Shown piece after piece: positions 44,326 through 56,612 of a stretch of DNA of 64,000 nucleotides. Every line of letters begins with the position of its first letter. Position 1 is the stretch's first letter. The notes under the pieces are model-generated. The model was not told the DNA's origin and made no database searches. It saw only the letters and a program-made list of their open reading frames with translations. Both the position numbers and the translations under genes were made by a program. Source of the stretch: an uncultured Pseudanabaenaceae cyanobacterium (lineage in GTDB: Bacteria > Cyanobacteriota > Cyanobacteriia > PCC-9006 > JAAUQQ01); assembly GCA_938002085.1 (NCBI GenBank), contig CALLAT010000112.1:23688-87687 (forward strand), read 5' to 3'.

Positions 44326-44716
44326 GTTGGGTCAGATGGCAGGTCTATTGTCATCATTCCCCAACTAATAGGCGGCTCTATATTCTTTGCCCGAACCTTA
44401 TAAGTCAGTCTTCATAATGCTTTGAGAGGATTAAGGCAGTCATTCTGAGTGAGCCCGTCCGTCAGTGAAATTGCTTGGGAATCGTGGGTTCAGCTTGAAC
44501 TTTATGCATTTTCCGCTTTGGGCTGATTTGCTACTCGTATTTTGTCACGAATGAACTTAAGGCTTGTTTATCCCTGCCTGGGGGCGATCTAAGGCTTTTC
44601 TCTGGCGATCGCAAAAAGCACGAGTATCCGCAGATACAGTTCCATCTGAATGGAGACGATTCTATAAAACCTATCGGTTTCGCAATGTAGGCGATTCCTT
44701 CCGTTACAGGTTTTCT

Positions 44717-46564
44717 ATGGTTGCCTCATCCCGCAATGTCCATCCCAAAATCCTGAAGCAGTTTCAACATCTGTTGGGCTCTATTCAGTTAGCTGTGCCA
44801 TTGTTGGTGGCCATCATTGGTGTTTTGGTTGGGGCGACATTTTATGAGTCTCAGGTGGGGTCGCCCACCGTTCAAAACCTGATTTATAAGAGCCATTGGT
44901 TTGGGGCCTTGATGTTTTTGCTGGCGGTGAATCTGTCGGTGTCGGCCCTCTCTCGCTATCCCTGGCGCGGTCCTCGCAAGATAGGTTTTGCCCTGACCCA
45001 CTTTGGCTTGGTGGTCTTGATTGCGGGCTCGGCTGCGGTGATTCACATCAGCACGGAGGGGATGCTGCTGGTGCGGACGGACCAGGGCGCGAACCGTTTG
45101 GTGCGGGTGGAGGGCGAGTTGCTGGATTTTGTGGGGCCAGAGGGGCAAGAGCAGCAATTCAATCTATTTATCAAGCCAGATAATACGGTTTCGCCTAGCC
45201 AGGCCGGCGACTTAGAGCTGCTGCGCTATGGCGAGAATGTGATTACGACGACGAATTTTGTTGAGCAAGGGGAGGTAGCGAATTCGGCGGTGAAGTTGCA
45301 GTTGCAGAGCGATCGCATGAACCAAACCCTGGAGCGCTGGCTGGCAGTTGCGCCAGCATCCTATAGCGAAGTCTCGGTTGGTCCAGCAACCCTGCAAGTC
45401 CAGCAGGCCCAGTCCGAAGCTGAACTAAAAGCCATGCTGGCTGCACCACCTAAGGCGGGCGACATTCCCAAGTTCGGCACCCTGTTGCTGGATTCGGGTA
45501 AAACTATTGATGTGGAGCAAAGCCAGGGACAGCTGATTGAGCTACCCGGTGGCGCTGACATGGTCATCACCCAAGTTTGGCCAGACTTCCGTCTCAACAG
45601 TGACAACCGGCCTGAAACGGCTTCTGAACAATTCAATAACCCCGTGCTTCAGGTCGCTTTGCGGGATGGAGAAAAAGAAGCCCGCTGGTTTGTCTTTGCC
45701 GAAGGCGGTTTTGAGCCGGTCAAGACGACGGTGGCGGGTGAGCCTTTGGATGCAAAGGCGTTGGGATTGGCCAATCTCAGTTATGAGGTTCAGCCCCAAC
45801 CGTTAGAGGACTACTTCCGAGTTGTCATTGCACCGGATGGGAGCCGCTTCTACGCTGCCAACTCTTCTAAAGGCTTCAAGTCTGGCCCCTTTGAGGCGGG
45901 CGAAGCCGTCACTCCCGGCTGGGCAGACTTCCGCATTAGCCTGGCGGACAGCCTCGACCATGCCGTGATTAATCGCGAGGTGGTAGAGGTCCCAGAAGAT
46001 GAAGGCTTGCAGGGTGAACCTGCCCTGCTAGTCCAAACGCCCGATGGTTCTCAGCAGTGGCTGCCCTGGGGCGAGGCCACGACTCTTAGTGATGCTGACG
46101 GAGACTATTACGCATCCTTTAGCGCTCAGATGCTGGAGTTGCCCTTTGGGGTCAAGCTGGAAGACTTCATTGTCGAGCGCAACGAAGGCAGTGAATCGGT
46201 GGCGATGTGGACGAGCCAAATTCGCCTGGATGATGCTCAAGCAGGTCCTCAAGAGAGCCGTCGCGTTTGGATGAACCACCCCACTTGGTACCAGGGCTGG
46301 AAAATTGCCCAGGCTTCTTGGAATCCCGGAGATCTCAACCAGTCCACCCTGCAAGTGAAGCGAGAGCCCTGGTGGGTGACGGGGCTGACCTGGTTGGGCT
46401 CGTTGATGGTGGTTGTGGGTACAGCAGTCATCTTCTACGGTCGCAGTGCGATGAAGAATCTCAAGGCTGCGTTGCCGGAGGAGAAAGATGAAGCGGTTAG
46501 CGCCGAGGCTGCCGCTGTGCCGTCGGCTCAGGCGAAGGGGCTTGATGCTCCGTTGTCGGTTTAG
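44717..46564 (+). CDS. ResB/Ccs1-like cytochrome c biogenesis protein
   Basis: N-terminal TM pair GSIQLAVPLLVAIIGVLVGATFYESQ, IGFALTHFGLVVLIAGSAAVIHISTEG, large periplasmic region, C-terminal TM; followed by a ccsA-like gene. Confidence 0.8.
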   Translation: MVASSRNVHPKILKQFQHLLGSIQLAVPLLVAIIGVLVGATFYESQVGSPTVQNLIYKSHWFGALMFLLAVNLSVSALSRYPWRGPRKIGFALTHFGLVVLIAGSAAVIHISTEGMLLVRTDQGANRLVRVEGELLDFVGPEGQEQQFNLFIKPDNTVSPSQAGDLELLRYGENVITTTNFVEQGEVANSAVKLQLQSDRMNQTLERWLAVAPASYSEVSVGPATLQVQQAQSEAELKAMLAAPPKAGDIPKFGTLLLDSGKTIDVEQSQGQLIELPGGADMVITQVWPDFRLNSDNRPETASEQFNNPVLQVALRDGEKEARWFVFAEGGFEPVKTTVAGEPLDAKALGLANLSYEVQPQPLEDYFRVVIAPDGSRFYAANSSKGFKSGPFEAGEAVTPGWADFRISLADSLDHAVINREVVEVPEDEGLQGEPALLVQTPDGSQQWLPWGEATTLSDADGDYYASFSAQMLELPFGVKLEDFIVERNEGSESVAMWTSQIRLDDAQAGPQESRRVWMNHPTWYQGWKIAQASWNPGDLNQSTLQVKREPWWVTGLTWLGSLMVVVGTAVIFYGRSAMKNLKAALPEEKDEAVSAEAAAVPSAQAKGLDAPLSV

Positions 46565-46629
46565 GGCAGATCGCTGATTGGTTTGGCTACAGGTTTTGTT
46601 TTCAGTCCCTTATGGTTCGCGCGATCGCT

Positions 46630-48378
46630 ATGAAATTCCTAAAATTCCTAATCGGCTTTACCCTCGGCCTGATGCTGCTGGTCTTGCCCCTTAGCCAATT
46701 CCAGGCTGGCCCCCTGGCTCCGCTGCAATCCCTAGCGGTGCAGATCGACGGGCGCAAAAAGCCTCTGGATACTGTGGCGCTGGAGACGGTGCAAAAGCTC
46801 CATGGTTCGGCCAGCTACAAGCAAGCCGATGGCTCCAAGCTGGACTATCTGCAAACCTACTTTGCCCTCGCTTTCAACGATCGCGATTGGAACAACGAGC
46901 CCTTCCTCCTCTTTAGCTATCGCCCGCTCAAAGAAGAAGTGGGCTTCAACCCGGAGCAAAAGTACTTCAGCTTTCAGGAGCTGCTCTCCTCTAAGTCCCT
47001 GAGCCAGGTGATCAACCGAGCCCATGCTCGCGAGATAGCGGGGGAAGACCTATTTCGCCTGGAGCGGGAGGCCCTGTCAATTGAGGACCGTGCGACACTG
47101 CTCTATCGCACCGTGGGAGACAATAGCCTGCCTCTCGTGCCCCATCCCAGCGATGCCAAGGGAACTTGGGTGACGATTGAGAATGCTGCCGAGCTGTATC
47201 CCCCTGAAACCGCAGCGGACCTGATGGCCTTGGAGCAGCAGGTTCAGCAGGGCTATCGCTTTGGAGCAGCGCACTTGGACTATGTAGGGCAGTTGGGCGG
47301 CAAGTTAAAACAGTCTTTGGCTGAGCTGAGCCCGATGGTCTATCCCAGCGATGCAACCCTCCAGCGCGAAGTCTTCTATAACCACTTCCACCCCTTCGGC
47401 AAAGCCTGGATGATCTTTGGTCTGGGCTTCCTGGTGATGCTGGCATCCCTCTGGTTCAAGCCCCTGGAGCTGTACGGCAGTGCAATCGGTCTGGCCGCAG
47501 CAGGTTTAACGACGGAGGCCTATGGTTTCATTTTGCGGATGCAAATCGCGGACCGTCCTCCTGTCACCAACATGTATGAGTCAGTCATTTGGGTGAGCTT
47601 TGGGGTTATTGCTCTAGCCCTGATTTTTGAACTGACTTCTGATAAAGCCCGCTACTATCTGCTCTCCGCTTCGCCAGTTGCCGTCGTTTGTTTGCTCTTG
47701 GCCGATCGCCTGCCGGTGGTGCTGGACCCCAGCATTGCGCCCCTGGTGCCGGTGCTGCGCGATAACTTTTGGCTCAGCATCCATGTCCCGACGATTACCC
47801 TGGGCTATGCCGCCTTTGCCCTGGCCATGGGCTTGGGTCATGTTTCCCTTGGCCATTACCTGTTTGCTAACCCTGCCAACCCCACGGTCAAAAAGCGTCT
47901 GCAAACCCTGTCCCAGTTCAACTACCGCACGCTCCAAGTGGGGGTGTTGCTGCTGACCACTGGCGTCATCCTGGGCGGCATTTGGGCGCACTTCTCCTGG
48001 GGCCGTTTTTGGGGCTGGGACCCGAAGGAGACCTGGGCTTTGATTGCCTTGCTGTGCTACTTGGTTCCGCTCCACGGTCGCCTAGTGGGTTGGATCGGCA
48101 ACTTTGGCATTAACGTTGCTGCTGTGGTGTCATTCAATGCAGTTTTGATGGCCTGGTATGGGGTTAACTTCGTCCTAGGGACTGGCTTGCACAGTTATGG
48201 CTTTGGTACGGGTGACTCCCAACTCATTGTGGCAGCGGTGGTTGTGGCTGACTTGGCGATCGTGGCCCTGACGGCCCTGCGTCATCGCAGCCGTAAGCCC
48301 TCGGGGCAACCCTTGATTATTGAAGAGGTCACGCTCTCTGAAGAAGCCATCCAAGCCATGGCGAGCGAAGCCCAGTAA
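46630..48378 (+). CDS. CcsA-like cytochrome c synthase subunit
   Basis: WWD motif WGRFWGWDPKETWALIALLCYLVPLHGR, multiple TM segments, extended N-terminal periplasmic domain. Confidence 0.9.
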   Translation: MKFLKFLIGFTLGLMLLVLPLSQFQAGPLAPLQSLAVQIDGRKKPLDTVALETVQKLHGSASYKQADGSKLDYLQTYFALAFNDRDWNNEPFLLFSYRPLKEEVGFNPEQKYFSFQELLSSKSLSQVINRAHAREIAGEDLFRLEREALSIEDRATLLYRTVGDNSLPLVPHPSDAKGTWVTIENAAELYPPETAADLMALEQQVQQGYRFGAAHLDYVGQLGGKLKQSLAELSPMVYPSDATLQREVFYNHFHPFGKAWMIFGLGFLVMLASLWFKPLELYGSAIGLAAAGLTTEAYGFILRMQIADRPPVTNMYESVIWVSFGVIALALIFELTSDKARYYLLSASPVAVVCLLLADRLPVVLDPSIAPLVPVLRDNFWLSIHVPTITLGYAAFALAMGLGHVSLGHYLFANPANPTVKKRLQTLSQFNYRTLQVGVLLLTTGVILGGIWAHFSWGRFWGWDPKETWALIALLCYLVPLHGRLVGWIGNFGINVAAVVSFNAVLMAWYGVNFVLGTGLHSYGFGTGDSQLIVAAVVVADLAIVALTALRHRSRKPSGQPLIIEEVTLSEEAIQAMASEAQ

Positions 48379-48447: not shown

Positions 48448-48954
48448 ATGGAACGTCGCAAATTTCTCTCTTGGTTGGGCGTTGGTGCATTAGCAACTTC
48501 TTTGCCCACGGTTTTGGCGGCTTGCTCTAGCACTTATGAAACCAGCACTGATTCTGTTGATACCAGCACCGAAAATATCATCACTAGCGACGACCCGATT
48601 CAGTCGGCAAAATCAGAGATTAGTGAGACCCCAGATGCGGATGGCTTCTACTCGGTGGGCACCTTAGCTGCGGTGGCCGCAGGGGGAGCGATTACTTCCA
48701 AGAAGTTTTCTAGTGCCTCTGGGGCATTGATTGTGGTTCAAGACCCAGCCAACCCTGAGGGAGTGGTGGCCCTCGATGCTCGCTGTACTCACCAGGGCTG
48801 TGCTGTTGATTGGGAAGATGGCAGCTTTGTTTGTCCTTGTCATGCCTCTGCCTTTGCCATTGATGGTGCCGTAGAGAAAGGCCCGGCCACAGAGCCTTTG
48901 GGAGTCTTTGAGACCAAGATTGAAGGCGACCAAATTTTTGTCAAACCGGCCTAG
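48448..48954 (+). CDS. Rieske 2Fe-2S protein with Tat-like signal and lipobox
   Basis: [24 protein letters not shown] cluster-binding motif; N-terminus [26 protein letters not shown]. Confidence 0.9.
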
Positions 48955-50219: not shown

Positions 50220-51245
50220 TTAGGGGCTGAGCCAAAAGTAATCCGCAATGCCACCTTCGCCCCCCTGGGCCATCGTTTCCGAGGGATTGAGTAGAACCGT
50301 GGTGTGTTGCAAGTCTGAGCCCAAGCGACGCGCCACCCGGTCCGGAATGCCCCAGCCATGCATAATATGGCCCTGCCCCGCTAGCACAACAACGGTATGG
50401 TCTGGGTTGTTCTGAGCAAACTCTGCCACGGTCTCCGCCATGGTTTCATCCCACAGCACCTGGGCCGAAAAGAAGCGCTCAAAGGCCGCATCCATGGCTT
50501 CCGGGTCCATGTCCTTTGAAGCATGGCCATGGCCGTGGTGGCCCATAAACACGCTGGCGACCCAACTGCGATATTCCACGTTGTTGAGGCTGATCTCTTC
50601 CAAGGGCGGAATCTGAGCCAGGGCTTCGTCGTCTAGGCTCTCAAATCCTTCGCGAGCGACCTGGCGGGTCAGCTCCTGGGGCGTGTTGGCGGCGAGCAGG
50701 GGCAACCCCTGAGCCTTGCCGTAGCTGATGATGGGCTCATACAAGGCCCAGTCAAAGCCCCAGCGTTCGTCGTACTCGCTGTCGCGGCGCAGGCTGTCGG
50801 CATCAATTTTGCCTGCGCTGTAGTCGTCCAGGACGGATTGGAAAGGGCGCTGGAACATCTCAAAGGCGATCGCCACCTTCTTCCCATCCGCTTCTCCCTG
50901 CGCCACCAAAGCTTGAATAATCTCCAACTGAGCCTGGTGATCCAGCTCGCTATCGTGACGCTCCCCGAGATACACCACACGGGATTCGCTGAGCGCCTTG
51001 AGGATAGTGGCGCGATCGCTCGCTTCACCCATTACAGTCTTTGCTTCCGTATTTGATTCTGCCTCAGCAGATTGGGCCTCGGCCTCCACAGCCACCTGGT
51101 TTTGGGCGGGCAAACTGGATTCTGCAGGCAAAATCTTACAGCCCGTCGTCACCAAACAGAGCAGAACCAGCAAAGCCCAAGGGCCGGAGCGTTGACGCAG
51201 AGGGATAACAGGCAAGGGCTTTGTTCCTTCGAAGAGACGAGGCAT
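50220..51245 (-). CDS. ChaN-like lipoprotein (heme-binding uptake family)
   Basis: Lipobox VTTGC; YLGERHDSELDHQAQLEIIQALVAQ, EMFQRPFQ, GHHGHGHASKDMDPEAMDAAFERFFSAQVLWDETMAE, VLAGQGHIMHGWGIPDRVARR. Confidence 0.85.
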   Translation of the reverse strand: MPRLFEGTKPLPVIPLRQRSGPWALLVLLCLVTTGCKILPAESSLPAQNQVAVEAEAQSAEAESNTEAKTVMGEASDRATILKALSESRVVYLGERHDSELDHQAQLEIIQALVAQGEADGKKVAIAFEMFQRPFQSVLDDYSAGKIDADSLRRDSEYDERWGFDWALYEPIISYGKAQGLPLLAANTPQELTRQVAREGFESLDDEALAQIPPLEEISLNNVEYRSWVASVFMGHHGHGHASKDMDPEAMDAAFERFFSAQVLWDETMAETVAEFAQNNPDHTVVVLAGQGHIMHGWGIPDRVARRLGSDLQHTTVLLNPSETMAQGGEGGIADYFWLSP

Positions 51246-51263
51246 ATCGTGTCGTTGGCGTAG

Positions 51264-51284
51264 GGACATGGCACTGCCATGTCC
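51264..51284. repeat. Palindromic repeat GGACATGGCA-C-TGCCATGTCC
   Basis: 10-bp perfect arms around one base, directly abutting the MITE TSD. Confidence 0.8.
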
Positions 51285-51286
51285 TA

Positions 51287-51419
51287 AGAGGTTGTTTGAG
51301 AAAGGCATCCAGCTGTAGCAGGATGACCTACGACGCGGCTTAAGTTAACGAGCTTTCGGTGTTTTGTTAAGGCTCAAGGTAGTAAATTTGATGCTTAGCC
51401 AAATTCTCAAACAACCTCT
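51287..51419. mobile_element. MITE-like element, 133 bp, 16-bp TIRs, TA target duplication
   Basis: TA-AGAGGTTGTTTGAGAA...TTCTCAAACAACCTCT-TA; related to 31586-31716. Confidence 0.88.
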
Positions 51420-51634
51420 TACGAATATTGTTGATCAGACCACCAGCAATAGGCCAACGTGGGCACCGCCGTGGCTAGCAAAATCACAATGGCACTGGCG
51501 CCTGTGCTCTGAATCCACCAGGTATCGGCAAAGCCCACCCACAGCGCCAATAGCCCTTCTCGGCTACCCGCCAGCTCCAGAAATTCCAGGAGGGTGAGCA
51601 GACCCAACAGCAAAAATTTAATTGAATGGCTCAT
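51419..51634 (-). CDS. Small membrane protein
   Basis: ~71 aa with two hydrophobic segments; start chosen at MSHSIKFLL; stop codon at the MITE junction. Confidence 0.6.
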   Translation of the reverse strand: MSHSIKFLLLGLLTLLEFLELAGSREGLLALWVGFADTWWIQSTGASAIVILLATAVPTLAYCWWSDQQYS

Positions 51635-51688
51635 GATTAACTCCTCATTCACTAGAGCGCGCGATCTTCAGTATTCAAGACGGTGGGC

Positions 51689-52216
51689 TTAGGAAAGGTT
51701 TGAGGTGGACAGCGATTGGGCCAGGTTGCCATCGTCTTCCAGCAAAGGCGCGATCGCCCGATCCAACAGCTTCCCCGGCACCCGCCCCACAAATTCCTCC
51801 TGCACCTCACCCTCAGCCGTCAGGGTCAGCAGGTGGGGAATGCCCGTGACGGAATATTGCCGAACCGCTGCCGCCGCCTGGGCATCGTCGATATTGACCA
51901 TGACAAAGTTGATGCGATCGCCATAATGACCGTGCAGCTCCGTCACTACAGGAGCCATAGATTGGCAGCTACTGCACCAGTCCGCATAAAACTCCAGCAC
52001 CGTAGGCTTTTCATCGGCCATTGCTTGGTCATAGGGCACGGATTGCTGAGCCATCGTCTTTAGCGCCATCAGGCCTTTGACCGGCGACAGGGAGGCGGCT
52101 ACGGCGGGGGGCGCTAGGCTCAGGGCAAGACAAAGGGCGATCGCAACGGTGATGAAGAGGCGCTTAGCTTGCCGATACCAGGGCGAATGGAATTGCGTTG
52201 AGTTTGAACAAGTCAT
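51689..52216 (-). CDS. Exported/membrane-anchored thioredoxin-like protein (HCF164/TxlA type)
   Basis: Hydrophobic N-terminus, VLEFYADWCSSCQSMAPVV active site, cis-Pro GIPHLL. Confidence 0.85.
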   Translation of the reverse strand: MTCSNSTQFHSPWYRQAKRLFITVAIALCLALSLAPPAVAASLSPVKGLMALKTMAQQSVPYDQAMADEKPTVLEFYADWCSSCQSMAPVVTELHGHYGDRINFVMVNIDDAQAAAAVRQYSVTGIPHLLTLTAEGEVQEEFVGRVPGKLLDRAIAPLLEDDGNLAQSLSTSNLS

Positions 52217-52273: not shown

Positions 52274-52888
52274 TTAGGCATAGAAATAGACCATAAAAAT
52301 ATGGAAGCCCAACATGACAAAAAACATAAAAGTGAAAAAGATATGGGTCGATAGCCAAATCGCCCGCATATCGCGAATTAAGGGTCCCTTCGAAAATACT
52401 CCAAACGGTAGTTTTTGAGGCTTCATCTCTGGCGTAACCGGCACCCAACCAAAATACTTTCTCGGGGATTCAAGCACGCCCGTTTCAGCAACCACTCCCA
52501 CCAGAGCAGAAATAGAAGTGCCCCAAAAGACCCACATCAGGGCCGCATTAAAATTAACGCCCGTTGTCCCCACAGTGTGAAGCATCACAATCCCAACCAA
52601 ACCCACCCCAGCAAAAACATGGAGACTGCGCCAAATTAAAATGGAGCCGGGTAGCTTAATCTTCCACTTCCGACCTCGCTTACGGAGCGTTAAAGCAATC
52701 TCTGACAGTACAAAAGCTAAACTGACAAAACCTGTCACTTGCTTGTACAAATTTCCCCTTAGAAACTCATGGATCTCAAAGGCTTGGGCCTGGAGTTGAG
52801 GCATGTATAGCCCACTAAAGACAAACGGCATCAACAACAATGCCGTCACGAAAGTTAAGAGAATAAGCGTTGAGAATCGAGGCTTCAT
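52274..52888 (-). CDS. Multi-TM protein, predicted diheme cytochrome b-like
   Basis: Two HX13H motifs: HVFAGVGLVGIVMLH and HIFFTFMFFVMLGFH within hydrophobic helices. Confidence 0.7.
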   Translation of the reverse strand: MKPRFSTLILLTFVTALLLMPFVFSGLYMPQLQAQAFEIHEFLRGNLYKQVTGFVSLAFVLSEIALTLRKRGRKWKIKLPGSILIWRSLHVFAGVGLVGIVMLHTVGTTGVNFNAALMWVFWGTSISALVGVVAETGVLESPRKYFGWVPVTPEMKPQKLPFGVFSKGPLIRDMRAIWLSTHIFFTFMFFVMLGFHIFMVYFYA

Positions 52889-53022: not shown

Positions 53023-53694
53023 TTATGCAGCTTCATCCAAAGGAATGTTGATGATGATTCCGCCCATAACATCACCCATTTCAAACACCTTGTCGGGATA
53101 ACGCTCTAGGTGAGTGGGGTGAGTGTTGTGACAAGTCACGCAAGCTTCTGCCACTGCTTTGTCTGGATAGAGCGCGGAGAAATAAGGCTTGCCAGCAACT
53201 TCCTGGTATTCCTTATAAGGTTCGCCGGTATCCACAATGGATTGAATAGCAGTCTTCTCAAACTCAGTTCTGGGCTCGTGGTTATCGTTGATGTACCAAC
53301 TAGACAAGAGCTGATAAGTAAAGGGACTGCCATCAGAAGCAATCTCCGAACCAAGGCGGAACATTTGAGCAGGCAGCGGAATGCCATCGGTTTGCTGCCA
53401 AGACTCGGTTGCCTCCACGTCGATCACGCCATCTGGCTTATCTTTACCTTCCAGCGTCTTGAGACGGTTAATAACATGCTTCGTGTAAGCGGTGCGATCC
53501 GCTTCCATCACAGCGTGAATATAGTCCGCGACGATGTCTGGGGCGATGCCTGCCGCCGCCACAGGAGTCGAGCCGCCGCCAGAGCCACCGGCACAGGAGA
53601 CTGCTAGAAAACAAACTGCGATGGCCATGGAGACCATCCCAATGGTTTTGGCCTTTAACCGACTAAACCAATTTGATGAACTGTTCGCACGCAT
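53023..53694 (-). CDS. Tll0287-like (DUF3365) mono-heme c-type lipoprotein
   Basis: Lipobox LAVSC, single CVTCH, SALYPDKAVAEACVTCHNTHP...GDVMGGIIINIPLD. Confidence 0.8.
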   Translation of the reverse strand: MRANSSSNWFSRLKAKTIGMVSMAIAVCFLAVSCAGGSGGGSTPVAAAGIAPDIVADYIHAVMEADRTAYTKHVINRLKTLEGKDKPDGVIDVEATESWQQTDGIPLPAQMFRLGSEIASDGSPFTYQLLSSWYINDNHEPRTEFEKTAIQSIVDTGEPYKEYQEVAGKPYFSALYPDKAVAEACVTCHNTHPTHLERYPDKVFEMGDVMGGIIINIPLDEAA

Positions 53695-53788: not shown

Positions 53789-54589
53789 TTATTTCCCTTC
53801 TCGCTTTTCTTGAAGAACTCTAACCATGTCAAAACTCTTTAGATGAATTTCTGGTGGTCTAGAAAAGTTTGAATTAACCAGCTCATTGTCAAAGATACTA
53901 TTGAAGGCGTATTCCATTCCGTGGCAATTCATACAAACTTCGCTAGCCATGCGATCTCTTGGCTTTAAATTGTAGGTATTGTTGTGGTTTACGAATGTAT
54001 TTTTGCCTGATTTATCTGCTTCTCTTTGTAAGTGGCAAGTGGAGCAAGTGACCGAAGCATTAGAAGGTCTTTCAATATTTCCTTCTGCCAAGAATGACTG
54101 GCTATGTTTTGAATTTTTGTAGTTCAAAGAATGCTCATCATTGTGACAAGTTAGACAAGAGTCCACAGAGGCTTGATAGGTATCAACAGAATGAACGTTG
54201 TGGCAAGCATTGCAATTCATTTGCTTGCTATGGGCCTCGGGCTTCATGGCAATTCTTGCCTTGGTGGGCGTGAGTGGAGTTTGGCCTTCTCGTAGGCGAA
54301 TGCCATGCTTGCCAAGTAGGAAGGTATCCGTCTCTCCCTCGTGGCAGCTCTGGCAGCTTTCGTAGTTTGGCTTCTCGACAAAGGCCTTTGTTTCACTGTC
54401 TTGGTGGCAACTGGAGCAGTTGACGTCGGCCAAGGCATGGGCGCTCGGTTTCCACTGGGCCGTGATCTCGTTGAGTTCCGCTTCGGTAATACTGTCTGCT
54501 TGGGCTGGCAAACTGGCCGTTAGACTTAGGCCGAGGGAAAGGGCCAGGGATAGGGTGATAGAGAAGGCGATCGCCAATAACTTCTTCAT
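53789..54589 (-). CDS. Periplasmic hexaheme c-type cytochrome
   Basis: Signal peptide plus six CXXCH: CSSCH, CQSCH, CNACH, CLTCH, CSTCH, CMNCH. Confidence 0.9.
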   Translation of the reverse strand: MKKLLAIAFSITLSLALSLGLSLTASLPAQADSITEAELNEITAQWKPSAHALADVNCSSCHQDSETKAFVEKPNYESCQSCHEGETDTFLLGKHGIRLREGQTPLTPTKARIAMKPEAHSKQMNCNACHNVHSVDTYQASVDSCLTCHNDEHSLNYKNSKHSQSFLAEGNIERPSNASVTCSTCHLQREADKSGKNTFVNHNNTYNLKPRDRMASEVCMNCHGMEYAFNSIFDNELVNSNFSRPPEIHLKSFDMVRVLQEKREGK

Positions 54590-55239
54590 GTCCCACCTCC
54601 CAAAAACTCACTTTTCAAATCGGGGCTAGGGGCCGTTTCTAATTGAGCCTCAACCACAATTTCTGGAACGGTCTGCACGGGCAGCATCGGCGGCTGGTCT
54701 AAGTTGTCGTACAGGAAACCCGTGGAAATGGAGCGATGGTCATGGTAGTTATGACAGCCTGCGGTCCAGCAACCATCCGCCGTAAAGCCCTCGTGGCTGG
54801 TCATTTCACCCGTGATGATGCCCTCGTGGCAAGCCATGCAAAGGTCTGGCTGGAGATGAACGCCCCGGCCATACATTTTCACATGCTCGCCATGGCAGGC
54901 TGTACAGGTCAGAGCATCCAGCTTTTCTAGCTTCTCGGCCCAGCGAATATCGCGAAACTTCTTGTCACCATGGATATCTTGTTCTAGCTCTGCTTCATGG
55001 CAACGGTTGCAGGTTTCATTGGAGACTTTTTTGAACCCCTCGTGGCAGGAAGCACAACTGGCTTCAAAGCCTAAATGACCTTCAGAGGTGACGCCCGGCA
55101 GAAAGATTGCTTTTTGCTCCGTCGCCATCGTCATGGTGGCAACTAGCCAAACTAGAAGAAAGACAACTGCTCCTCCAATGATGGTTTTGATATTAATGAA
55201 GGACTTGAGCCCTCGACCTTTTCCCGATCTAGAAGCCAT
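54586..55239 (-). CDS. Membrane-anchored multiheme c-type cytochrome (4 CXXCH + 1 CX4CH)
   Basis: N-terminal TM IIGGAVVFLLVWLVATMTM; CASCH, CNRCH, CTACH, CMACH and CWTAGCH; ATGA overlap with the next gene. Confidence 0.9.
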   Translation of the reverse strand: MASRSGKGRGLKSFINIKTIIGGAVVFLLVWLVATMTMATEQKAIFLPGVTSEGHLGFEASCASCHEGFKKVSNETCNRCHEAELEQDIHGDKKFRDIRWAEKLEKLDALTCTACHGEHVKMYGRGVHLQPDLCMACHEGIITGEMTSHEGFTADGCWTAGCHNYHDHRSISTGFLYDNLDQPPMLPVQTVPEIVVEAQLETAPSPDLKSEFLGGGT

Positions 55240-55514: not shown

Positions 55515-56612
55515 CTAGAGCAGAATGAACAAGAAAATCACTGCAACGAGTCCTACAACACCACCTGCTACAGGCAACACTGGAAAGTTAGAACTTTCCT
55601 CCTGACTCACCTCACTATGCATTGGCCCCCCACTGGGGGTAGCAGGCTCAGGAGCTGGAGGCGTCACATTGGGCAAGCTTGGCTCAGCCGGAGCAGCCGG
55701 AGCCGCAGACTCTAACTGAACGTCTTGTTGAGAGTAATCAGCCCCTTCCAGCATCAATGCCGTAATGGCTCCGTAGGCCTCCACCCAAGCGTTCTTGGTG
55801 GTTTCGGTCCAGTCCGCGCCTAGATACTGTTCAAAGGTTTTGAGCAAGCTATTACCCACCAACGGATAGTGCTCTGGCAAAGCGCCATATTTGACATGGC
55901 GAGCCCCCAACCCGCCCAAGGCCTTGCTTAAAACCTCTGGCTTGCGAAGGTTCTCCACGACCATGACGAGGCCGCCCTTAAGCATTTGCCCCTGGCTCTT
56001 CATATTGGTGTGTTCAAACAGAGGCTTCGCTGCTGGATAGTCCGTGAAGAGGTTGTCATAAAAGCTCATCACAAACTCATCAGCTTGGGGAGCAACCTTC
56101 CCAAAGCTTTCTTCTAAAAGGCTTACATTAAGCCCGGCTTCTTCTTCAGATTCTGAAGGCGTCTCTGCAGGTACCGGAGCGTTGTCTAGATCTACCTCGG
56201 AGCTGCTGTAGTCAGCCCCTTCCAGCATGAGAGCGGTGATGGCTCCGTAAGCCTCAACCCAGGCTGTCTTTGTTTCCTCCGTCCAATCCTCTTTTAGATA
56301 CTGTTCAAAGGTTTTGAGCAAGCTATTGCCCACCAATGGATAGTGCTCAGGTAAGGCCCCATATTTGACATGGCGAGCCCCCAATCCGCCTAACGCCTTG
56401 CTCAAAACATCGGGATTGTTGAGGTTCTCCATCACCATGACAAGCCCCCCTTTGAGCATTTGCCCCTGCTTTTTCATATCACTGTGCTCAAACAGTGGCT
56501 TAGCAGCGGGGTAATCGGTGAAGAGATTGTCGTAGAAGCTCATGACAAAATCATCAGCTTGGGGGGCGACTTTGCCAAAACTCTGCTCTAGCAAATCAAC
56601 TTGCAACGACAT
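55515..56612 (-). CDS. Tandem two-domain globin (flavohemoglobin-type globin fold) with C-terminal TM anchor
   Basis: Two near-identical domains ...FVMSFYDNLFTDYPAAKPLFE...GGLGARHVKYGALPEHYPLVGNSLLKTFEQYL..., then PVLPVAGGVVGLVAVIFLFILL. Confidence 0.88.
   Translation of the reverse strand: MSLQVDLLEQSFGKVAPQADDFVMSFYDNLFTDYPAAKPLFEHSDMKKQGQMLKGGLVMVMENLNNPDVLSKALGGLGARHVKYGALPEHYPLVGNSLLKTFEQYLKEDWTEETKTAWVEAYGAITALMLEGADYSSSEVDLDNAPVPAETPSESEEEAGLNVSLLEESFGKVAPQADEFVMSFYDNLFTDYPAAKPLFEHTNMKSQGQMLKGGLVMVVENLRKPEVLSKALGGLGARHVKYGALPEHYPLVGNSLLKTFEQYLGADWTETTKNAWVEAYGAITALMLEGADYSQQDVQLESAAPAAPAEPSLPNVTPPAPEPATPSGGPMHSEVSQEESSNFPVLPVAGGVVGLVAVIFLFILL

Follow-up and report, generated by a model that had tools for sequence, protein, structure and literature searches.

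A split undecahaem cytochrome in cyanobacteria and its candidate role in transmembrane electron export

Introduction

Proteins of the NapC/NirT/NrfH type share with the pentahaem cytochrome described here an N-terminal transmembrane (TM) anchor and external c haems; the pentahaem protein differs from them in its five haems, its one CX4CH motif and the separate cytochrome b in its operon. The HAO family (1fgj, 4n4j, 6h5l) shares a fold with the predicted structure of the adjacent hexahaem cytochrome, whose haems align with HAO haems 2, 3, 5, 6, 7 and 8. Unlike HAO, the hexahaem half is without haems 1 and 4, has an invariant candidate distal His for each haem and is joined to a pentahaem anchor. 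An undecahaem cytochrome, UetJ, has been reported in Tenderiales and Gallionella together with a porin, trihaem proteins and NHL proteins; like the present pair it has eleven haems and is annotated as cytochrome c3 family (PMC10734462). Here a TM anchor, a cytochrome b and a Tll0287-like lipoprotein are found instead, and the two systems are set apart on the basis of gene neighbourhood.

NirB, the large subunit of the NADH nitrite reductase, has an N-terminal FAD + BFD half in common with a flavocytochrome encoded at the non-cyanobacterial loci; in the flavocytochrome, a dihaem membrane cytochrome b replaces the nitrite-reducing half. In Bradyrhizobium, a globin, an NAD(P)H flavoprotein and NasC detoxify NO (PMC4724949). 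The NarK-Bjgb-Flp-NasC operon resembles some non-cyanobacterial loci in its single-domain globin, NAD(P)H flavoprotein and nitrate genes, but unlike the present module it contains neither a multihaem cytochrome nor a membrane cytochrome b (PMC4724949). Finally, Wolinella NrfI (for CXXCK) and CcsA1 (for CX15CH) are specialised System II synthases (PMC12285233). As in Wolinella, an extra CcsBA-type synthase accompanies a cytochrome whose haem motif departs from the canonical form; in contrast, the motif here is CX4CH, not the CXXCK or CX15CH of Wolinella, the synthase comprises two polypeptides, and its link to CX4CH is one of co-occurrence only.

The cytochrome pair

The window analysed is a stretch of 64,000 nucleotides of cyanobacterial DNA. 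It carries the following features of the pair.

54586..55239, minus strand: pentahaem membrane-anchored cytochrome c, 217 aa, with four CXXCH and one CX4CH; putative N-terminal half of a split undecahaem protein
53789..54589, minus strand: secreted hexahaem cytochrome c, 266 aa, with six CXXCH and a predicted HAO-type fold; putative C-terminal half of the same protein
54586..54589, minus strand: ATGA stop/start overlap of the pentahaem and hexahaem genes
54596..54600, minus strand: Shine-Dalgarno-like GGAGG within the last codons of the pentahaem gene, placed to serve the hexahaem gene
54751..54771, minus strand: CWTAGCH, the CX4CH haem motif (C157-WTAG-C-H163) of the pentahaem protein

An earlier, sequence-only reading of this DNA had proposed six CXXCH motifs in the downstream protein, and four CXXCH motifs, CWTAGCH and an N-terminal TM anchor in the upstream one. 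The open reading frames (ORFs) bear this out: the pentahaem protein has a single TM segment, with a peak starting at about residue 20, and the hexahaem protein has a signal-peptide-like N-terminus that ends in AQA. All cysteines of the pentahaem (10/10) and hexahaem (12/12) proteins sit in the 5 + 6 haem motifs, and the motif count is therefore internally consistent. Composition-preserving shuffles of the proteins gave a mean of 0.02–0.03 CXXCH and a maximum of 2 (n = 20,000), so a chance origin of the motifs can be dismissed. The translational coupling suggested from the ATGA overlap also holds up, with GGAGG embedded just upstream and exact conservation of the overlap in most cyanobacterial relatives.

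Relatives were collected by scanning the pentahaem alignment against one genome per species, which found 281, the best 80 of which were kept. Within this set (the best 80 of 281), all 42 readable cyanobacterial loci have the pentahaem gene next to, but separate from, the hexahaem gene; 39 of these have the exact 4-nt ATGA/GTGA overlap, including one (L009) with a frame anomaly in its contig, and 41 have a Shine-Dalgarno-like sequence at the end of the upstream gene. The relatives in the set that come from six other phyla carry one ORF in 36/36 loci, roughly 430–660 aa untrimmed, with 10 CXXCH and 1 CX4CH in every case. The full motif set, CX4CH included, is intact in each of the 42 cyanobacterial pairs and each of the 36 fused homologues. 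Since the non-cyanobacterial homologues are single polypeptides throughout, the cyanobacterial pair can be read as a split undecahaem cytochrome, its members being two halves of one protein elsewhere. Fusion of this kind is strong comparative evidence for a 1:1 complex of the two proteins, and gives a definite ratio to the stoichiometric complex proposed earlier. A single branch of a maximum-likelihood tree, with support of 100/100, separates the cyanobacterial pairs from all other sequences; the tree is unrooted and does not fix the direction, split or fusion. The natural split and fusion offer material for studying multihaem assembly.

The module is rare, occurring in 4/386 sampled cyanobacterial genomes and in 3/399 sampled Pseudomonadota genomes (query genome included), and a search of plasmids with the fused protein gave no match. 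Searches of the open-licence literature turned up no description of it, and it is apparently an undescribed, yet conserved, redox gene set. To our knowledge, multihaem wires have rarely been described from oxygenic phototrophs. The pair is a real, conserved two-gene cytochrome that varies on multihaem electron-transfer systems already known; its function is what we infer below.

Operon partners

Beyond the pair noticed in the sequence-only reading, the window holds further partners: a cytochrome b, a Tll0287-like lipoprotein, a tail-anchored globin and a second Ccs1/CcsA synthase. The first three, and the smaller genes around them, are as follows.

55515..56612, minus strand: tandem double globin, flavohaemoglobin-type, with a C-terminal TM tail; first gene of the operon
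53023..53694, minus strand: Tll0287-like (PF11845) monohaem c-type Cache protein, probable lipoprotein
52274..52888, minus strand: membrane cytochrome b with 4–5 hydrophobic segments and invariant His 90, 104, 182 and 196
51689..52216, minus strand: exported thioredoxin-like protein (WCSSC)
51419..51652, minus strand: 77-aa two-TM protein, found only in close relatives
50220..51308, minus strand: ChaN-like haem-binding protein (PF04187), linked in about 8 loci
48448..48954, plus strand: Rieske protein, short and with a Tat-like signal; adjoins the extra ccs genes, with linkage in 18/42 cyanobacterial loci

The order in cyanobacteria is globin, pentahaem, hexahaem, Tll0287-like protein, cytochrome b and often thioredoxin, present in 41, 42, 42, 41, 37 and 28 of the 42 loci respectively, many of whose contigs are short. 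The window's globin consists of two globin domains and the TM tail only, with no FAD/NAD reductase domain of the kind that defines a flavohaemoglobin. Operon globins of other cyanobacterial loci (e.g. L006, L014, L025) have one to five tandem flavohaemoglobin-type domains and no reductase domain, and usually end in a C-terminal TM tail. These globins sit directly upstream of the cytochromes. Outside cyanobacteria, a globin is a neighbour in 15/36 loci.

The Tll0287-like protein belongs to PF11845 (E 4.2e-21) and has one CXXCH; although the Pfam match is clear, a phmmer search of the PDB with the window protein gave no match. Among its relatives CXXCH is present in 97–98%, and, in a comparison made with the His/Cys ligation of T. 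elongatus Tll0287 in mind, the only other conserved Cys lies in a lipobox-like motif. The gene is a neighbour in 35/36 non-cyanobacterial loci. A stand-alone Tll0287-type protein shows redox behaviour and is not a strong NO binder (PMC12889525). The lipoprotein encoded here is likely to be a further redox partner of the pair.

The four His of the cytochrome b are invariant in 73/73 sequences and form two HX13H pairs, which argues for two b haems. Outside cyanobacteria, a homologue of the window protein forms the C-terminal portion of a NirB-like flavocytochrome b (~650–720 aa), in which FAD (PF07992), BFD [2Fe-2S] and cytochrome b domains are fused and which is found in 35/36 loci; its N-terminal part matches the NirB half (TIGR02374, 356 bits). 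No curated family encountered spans the whole of this fusion (L056:7859-9964, L066:7809-9965 and 33 other loci). A search of cyanobacterial genomes for a stand-alone NirB-like FAD/BFD partner found none that is dedicated to the module; there were weak general flavoprotein matches elsewhere, and full NirB-like proteins (868–882 aa ORFs) only in the window's own genome and one other (G004). The nitrite reductase expected in cyanobacteria is the ferredoxin-dependent NirA, and the NirB-like protein of the window's genome (G000:C67:51714-53114; 882-aa ORF) is unusual for a cyanobacterium.

An extra cytochrome c synthase

Two genes of an extra System II synthase lie beside the Rieske gene.

44564..46564, plus strand: Ccs1/ResB
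46612..48378, plus strand: CcsA, CcsBA-type

Residues 43–559 of this CcsA align to the CcsBA structure 7s9y (E 6e-50), a full-length CcsBA-type match; housekeeping cyanobacterial CcsA copies match over the core only, at about 291–531. The long CcsA was found in 7/7 genomes with the hexahaem gene and 0/8 without it. Strong Ccs1 homologues (> 250 bits) occur in 5/386 cyanobacterial genomes, including all 4 that have the hexahaem gene, and Ccs1 and CcsA lie within 26 and 24 of the 42 cyanobacterial loci. The fifth Ccs1 genome (G104) retains ccs1, ccsA with an in-frame TAA, the Rieske, ChaN and thioredoxin genes and a truncated cytochrome b; an unrelated transposase-like ORF occupies the expected place of the cytochrome genes. 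The locus (L095, 9573-18874) is a decayed form of the cluster, with an interrupted pentapeptide-repeat gene, the truncated cytochrome b beside the transposase-like ORF and the cytochromes gone.

Twelve further cytochrome-bearing genomes, chosen mostly because the gene was incomplete in the fetched locus, had a long CcsA in eight cases (one partial), a fragment in one and none in three (two Symploca and one Halomicronema MAG). Three Xenococcaceae genomes (L014, L023, L035; G824-G826) have the long CcsA only, with no match to an ordinary cyanobacterial CcsA, and a replacement of the ordinary protein by the long CcsBA-type form is possible there; most hosts of the pair also carry a housekeeping CcsA. 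The exceptions among the twelve weaken the idea of a strictly dedicated synthase. In cyanobacteria, the extra synthase appears strongly associated with the pair, though neither universally nor exclusively dedicated to it, given the three genomes without the long CcsA and the three Xenococcaceae with the long form alone. No ccs genes were found within the fetched non-cyanobacterial loci, and the electron-transfer core therefore stands alone there. Together, the co-occurrence and the decayed copy make this a natural setting in which to ask if a System II synthase of its own is required for attaching the CX4CH haem.

Haem ligation and fold

An alignment of 82 sequences has the 11 haem motifs and 11 further His conserved at 98–100%, the pentahaem part contributing five of these His and the hexahaem part six. 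As the eleven non-motif His match the eleven haems, the simplest reading is that all eleven haems are bis-His ligated, and the undecahaem complex is thus probably an electron wire rather than an enzyme.

For the hexahaem protein, an AF2 model built from a 77-row alignment (pLDDT 88; without haems) found HAO 1fgj as its best Foldseek match (E 5.3e-5, probability 1.00, TMq 0.50), and 6h5l (E 1e-4) and 4n4n were also matched with probability 1.00. A HAO fold is predicted for this half, the relationship being one of remote homology in view of the modest TM-score (0.50 by query). In both single-sequence and profile alignments, the CDMCH of 6h5l, which we take to mark HAO catalytic haem 4, lies opposite a haem-less stretch of the hexahaem protein, and HAO haem 1 falls outside the aligned region. 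The hexahaem half would thus be a HAO fold without haem 1 and without catalytic haem 4, an apparent reuse of the fold as a pure wire. The aligned chain of PDB 6r2q carries CXXCH motifs, although the entry is labelled 'cystathionine beta-synthase'; it was not used to assign function.

The pentahaem half gives profile matches only to general cytochrome c3-type families. In the predicted structure of a fused homologue this half is unreliable (pLDDT mostly < 50), and Foldseek searches with that model were uninformative except for HAO 4n4m (E 0.15).

An electron-export model and its alternatives

From the split and fusion, the haem and ligand count, the fold, the partners and the synthase co-occurrence, all read from sequence, we infer a direction of electron flow, a cyanobacterial donor, an acceptor and a physiology. 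With a probability of roughly 0.6, the pair and its partners form a transmembrane electron-export module, an eleven-haem wire fed by cytochrome b and possibly serving nitrogen-oxide handling. The pentahaem half would be held in the membrane by its N-terminal helix, with its haems facing outside, and the exported hexahaem half would bind it 1:1, aided by translational coupling. The bis-His eleven-haem complex would then act as a conduit, not an enzyme. Electrons would be supplied across the membrane to the pentahaem anchor by the operon's dihaem cytochrome b, which outside cyanobacteria may be fed by NAD(P)H via its fused NirB-like FAD + [2Fe-2S] module; in cyanobacteria, where that module is absent, quinol or another donor may take its place. 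The exit path may run from the pentahaem to the HAO-fold hexahaem protein, perhaps on to the Tll0287-like lipoprotein, and then to an extracytoplasmic acceptor encoded outside the operon; among the 42 cyanobacterial and 36 other loci, the module has no conserved gene for a terminal acceptor or reductase. The circuit is testable, the module being present in cultured strains, e.g. Leptolyngbya sp. PCC 7375, Xenococcus sp. PCC 7305, Microbulbifer and Marinobacter.

An undecahaem, all-bis-His wire could also belong to a cell-surface conduit of the UetJ or MtrC type, delivering electrons to minerals or mat neighbours. The weak profile matches to MtrC/MtrF and DmsE point that way, as does the placement of many cyanobacterial hosts in benthic or mat-forming genera. 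The anchor at the N-terminus, however, is an inner-membrane one, and Uet-type neighbours were not found: the 36 loci show no recurrent gene set of porin UetC, trihaem UetDEG and NHL UetHI, and Opr-type porins occur in only 5/36, always with nitrate-uptake genes. A surface conduit is therefore considered unlikely.

Somewhat less probable still is a catalytic HAO-family enzyme, whose hexahaem subunit would act on NO, hydroxylamine or nitrite with the pentahaem protein as electron donor or acceptor. The HAO fold of the model, the sequence matches to NrfA/ONR/HAO and a nearby globin, sometimes with nitrate genes, are what such an enzyme would lead one to expect. HAO enzymes, however, have eight haems, with haem 4 lacking a distal ligand; the hexahaem protein has six, no counterpart of the catalytic haem 4 motif, and an invariant candidate distal His for every remaining haem, so that no open coordination site is expected. 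Nor is there a Lys-ligated haem with an open distal site as in NrfA (CXXCK or equivalent), all motifs ending in His. With haem 4 missing and a haem:His ratio of 11:11, catalytic readings of either kind are disfavoured. The suggestion that neither protein is an obvious known enzyme thus gains support; that of a 'soluble multihaem partner' is right as to an exported multihaem protein and incomplete in that its HAO fold has lost the catalytic haem.

It is very unlikely that the module serves mainly in cytochrome c maturation or extracytoplasmic redox homeostasis, with the pair as a source of reductant for haem or thiols. The neighbouring genes that would favour such a role are those for ChaN, the thioredoxin-like protein (28/42 loci), Ccs1 (26/42) and CcsA (24/42); against this, the fetched non-cyanobacterial loci have no ccs genes, and housekeeping CcsA is also present in most hosts.

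The profile comparison proposed with the sequence-only reading gave no match to NapC/NrfH, a general c3-type match for the pentahaem protein and a HAO-type match for the hexahaem protein. The NapC/NirT-like donor of that reading, a quinol dehydrogenase with a nitrite reductase partner as in NrfHA, is largely refuted, for although a TM-anchored multihaem protein does adjoin an exported one and the hexahaem profile gives weak NrfA matches, NapC/NirT and NrfH models match neither the pentahaem protein (E <= 0.1) nor the 36 fused homologues (E <= 0.001), there are five haems and ten Cys rather than four haems, CXXCK is absent, and the operon carries its own cytochrome b.

Nitrogen-oxide context

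Within the electron-export reading, a link to the handling of NO or nitrite is a tentative proposal, to be held lightly; it draws on the globins, on the nitrate-assimilation genes that accompany a minority of the non-cyanobacterial loci and on the Bradyrhizobium precedent. A fuller version is rather doubtful as a whole: that at least seven phyla share an undescribed export complex in which a dihaem cytochrome b, an undecahaem wire and globins act in nitrogen-oxide defence, driven by NAD(P)H (in cyanobacteria by quinol), with a HAO-fold module that lost its catalytic haem and a cyanobacterial CcsBA-type synthase that handles the CX4CH haem. Of the non-cyanobacterial loci, 29/36 lack nitrate genes, and the cyanobacterial loci showed none; nitrate-type ABC transporter genes (NrtA/B/D) lie beside the other 7/36 fused loci (L051, L060, L066, L067, L073, L074 and L084), and L066 also has NarK and a NasC-like reductase.
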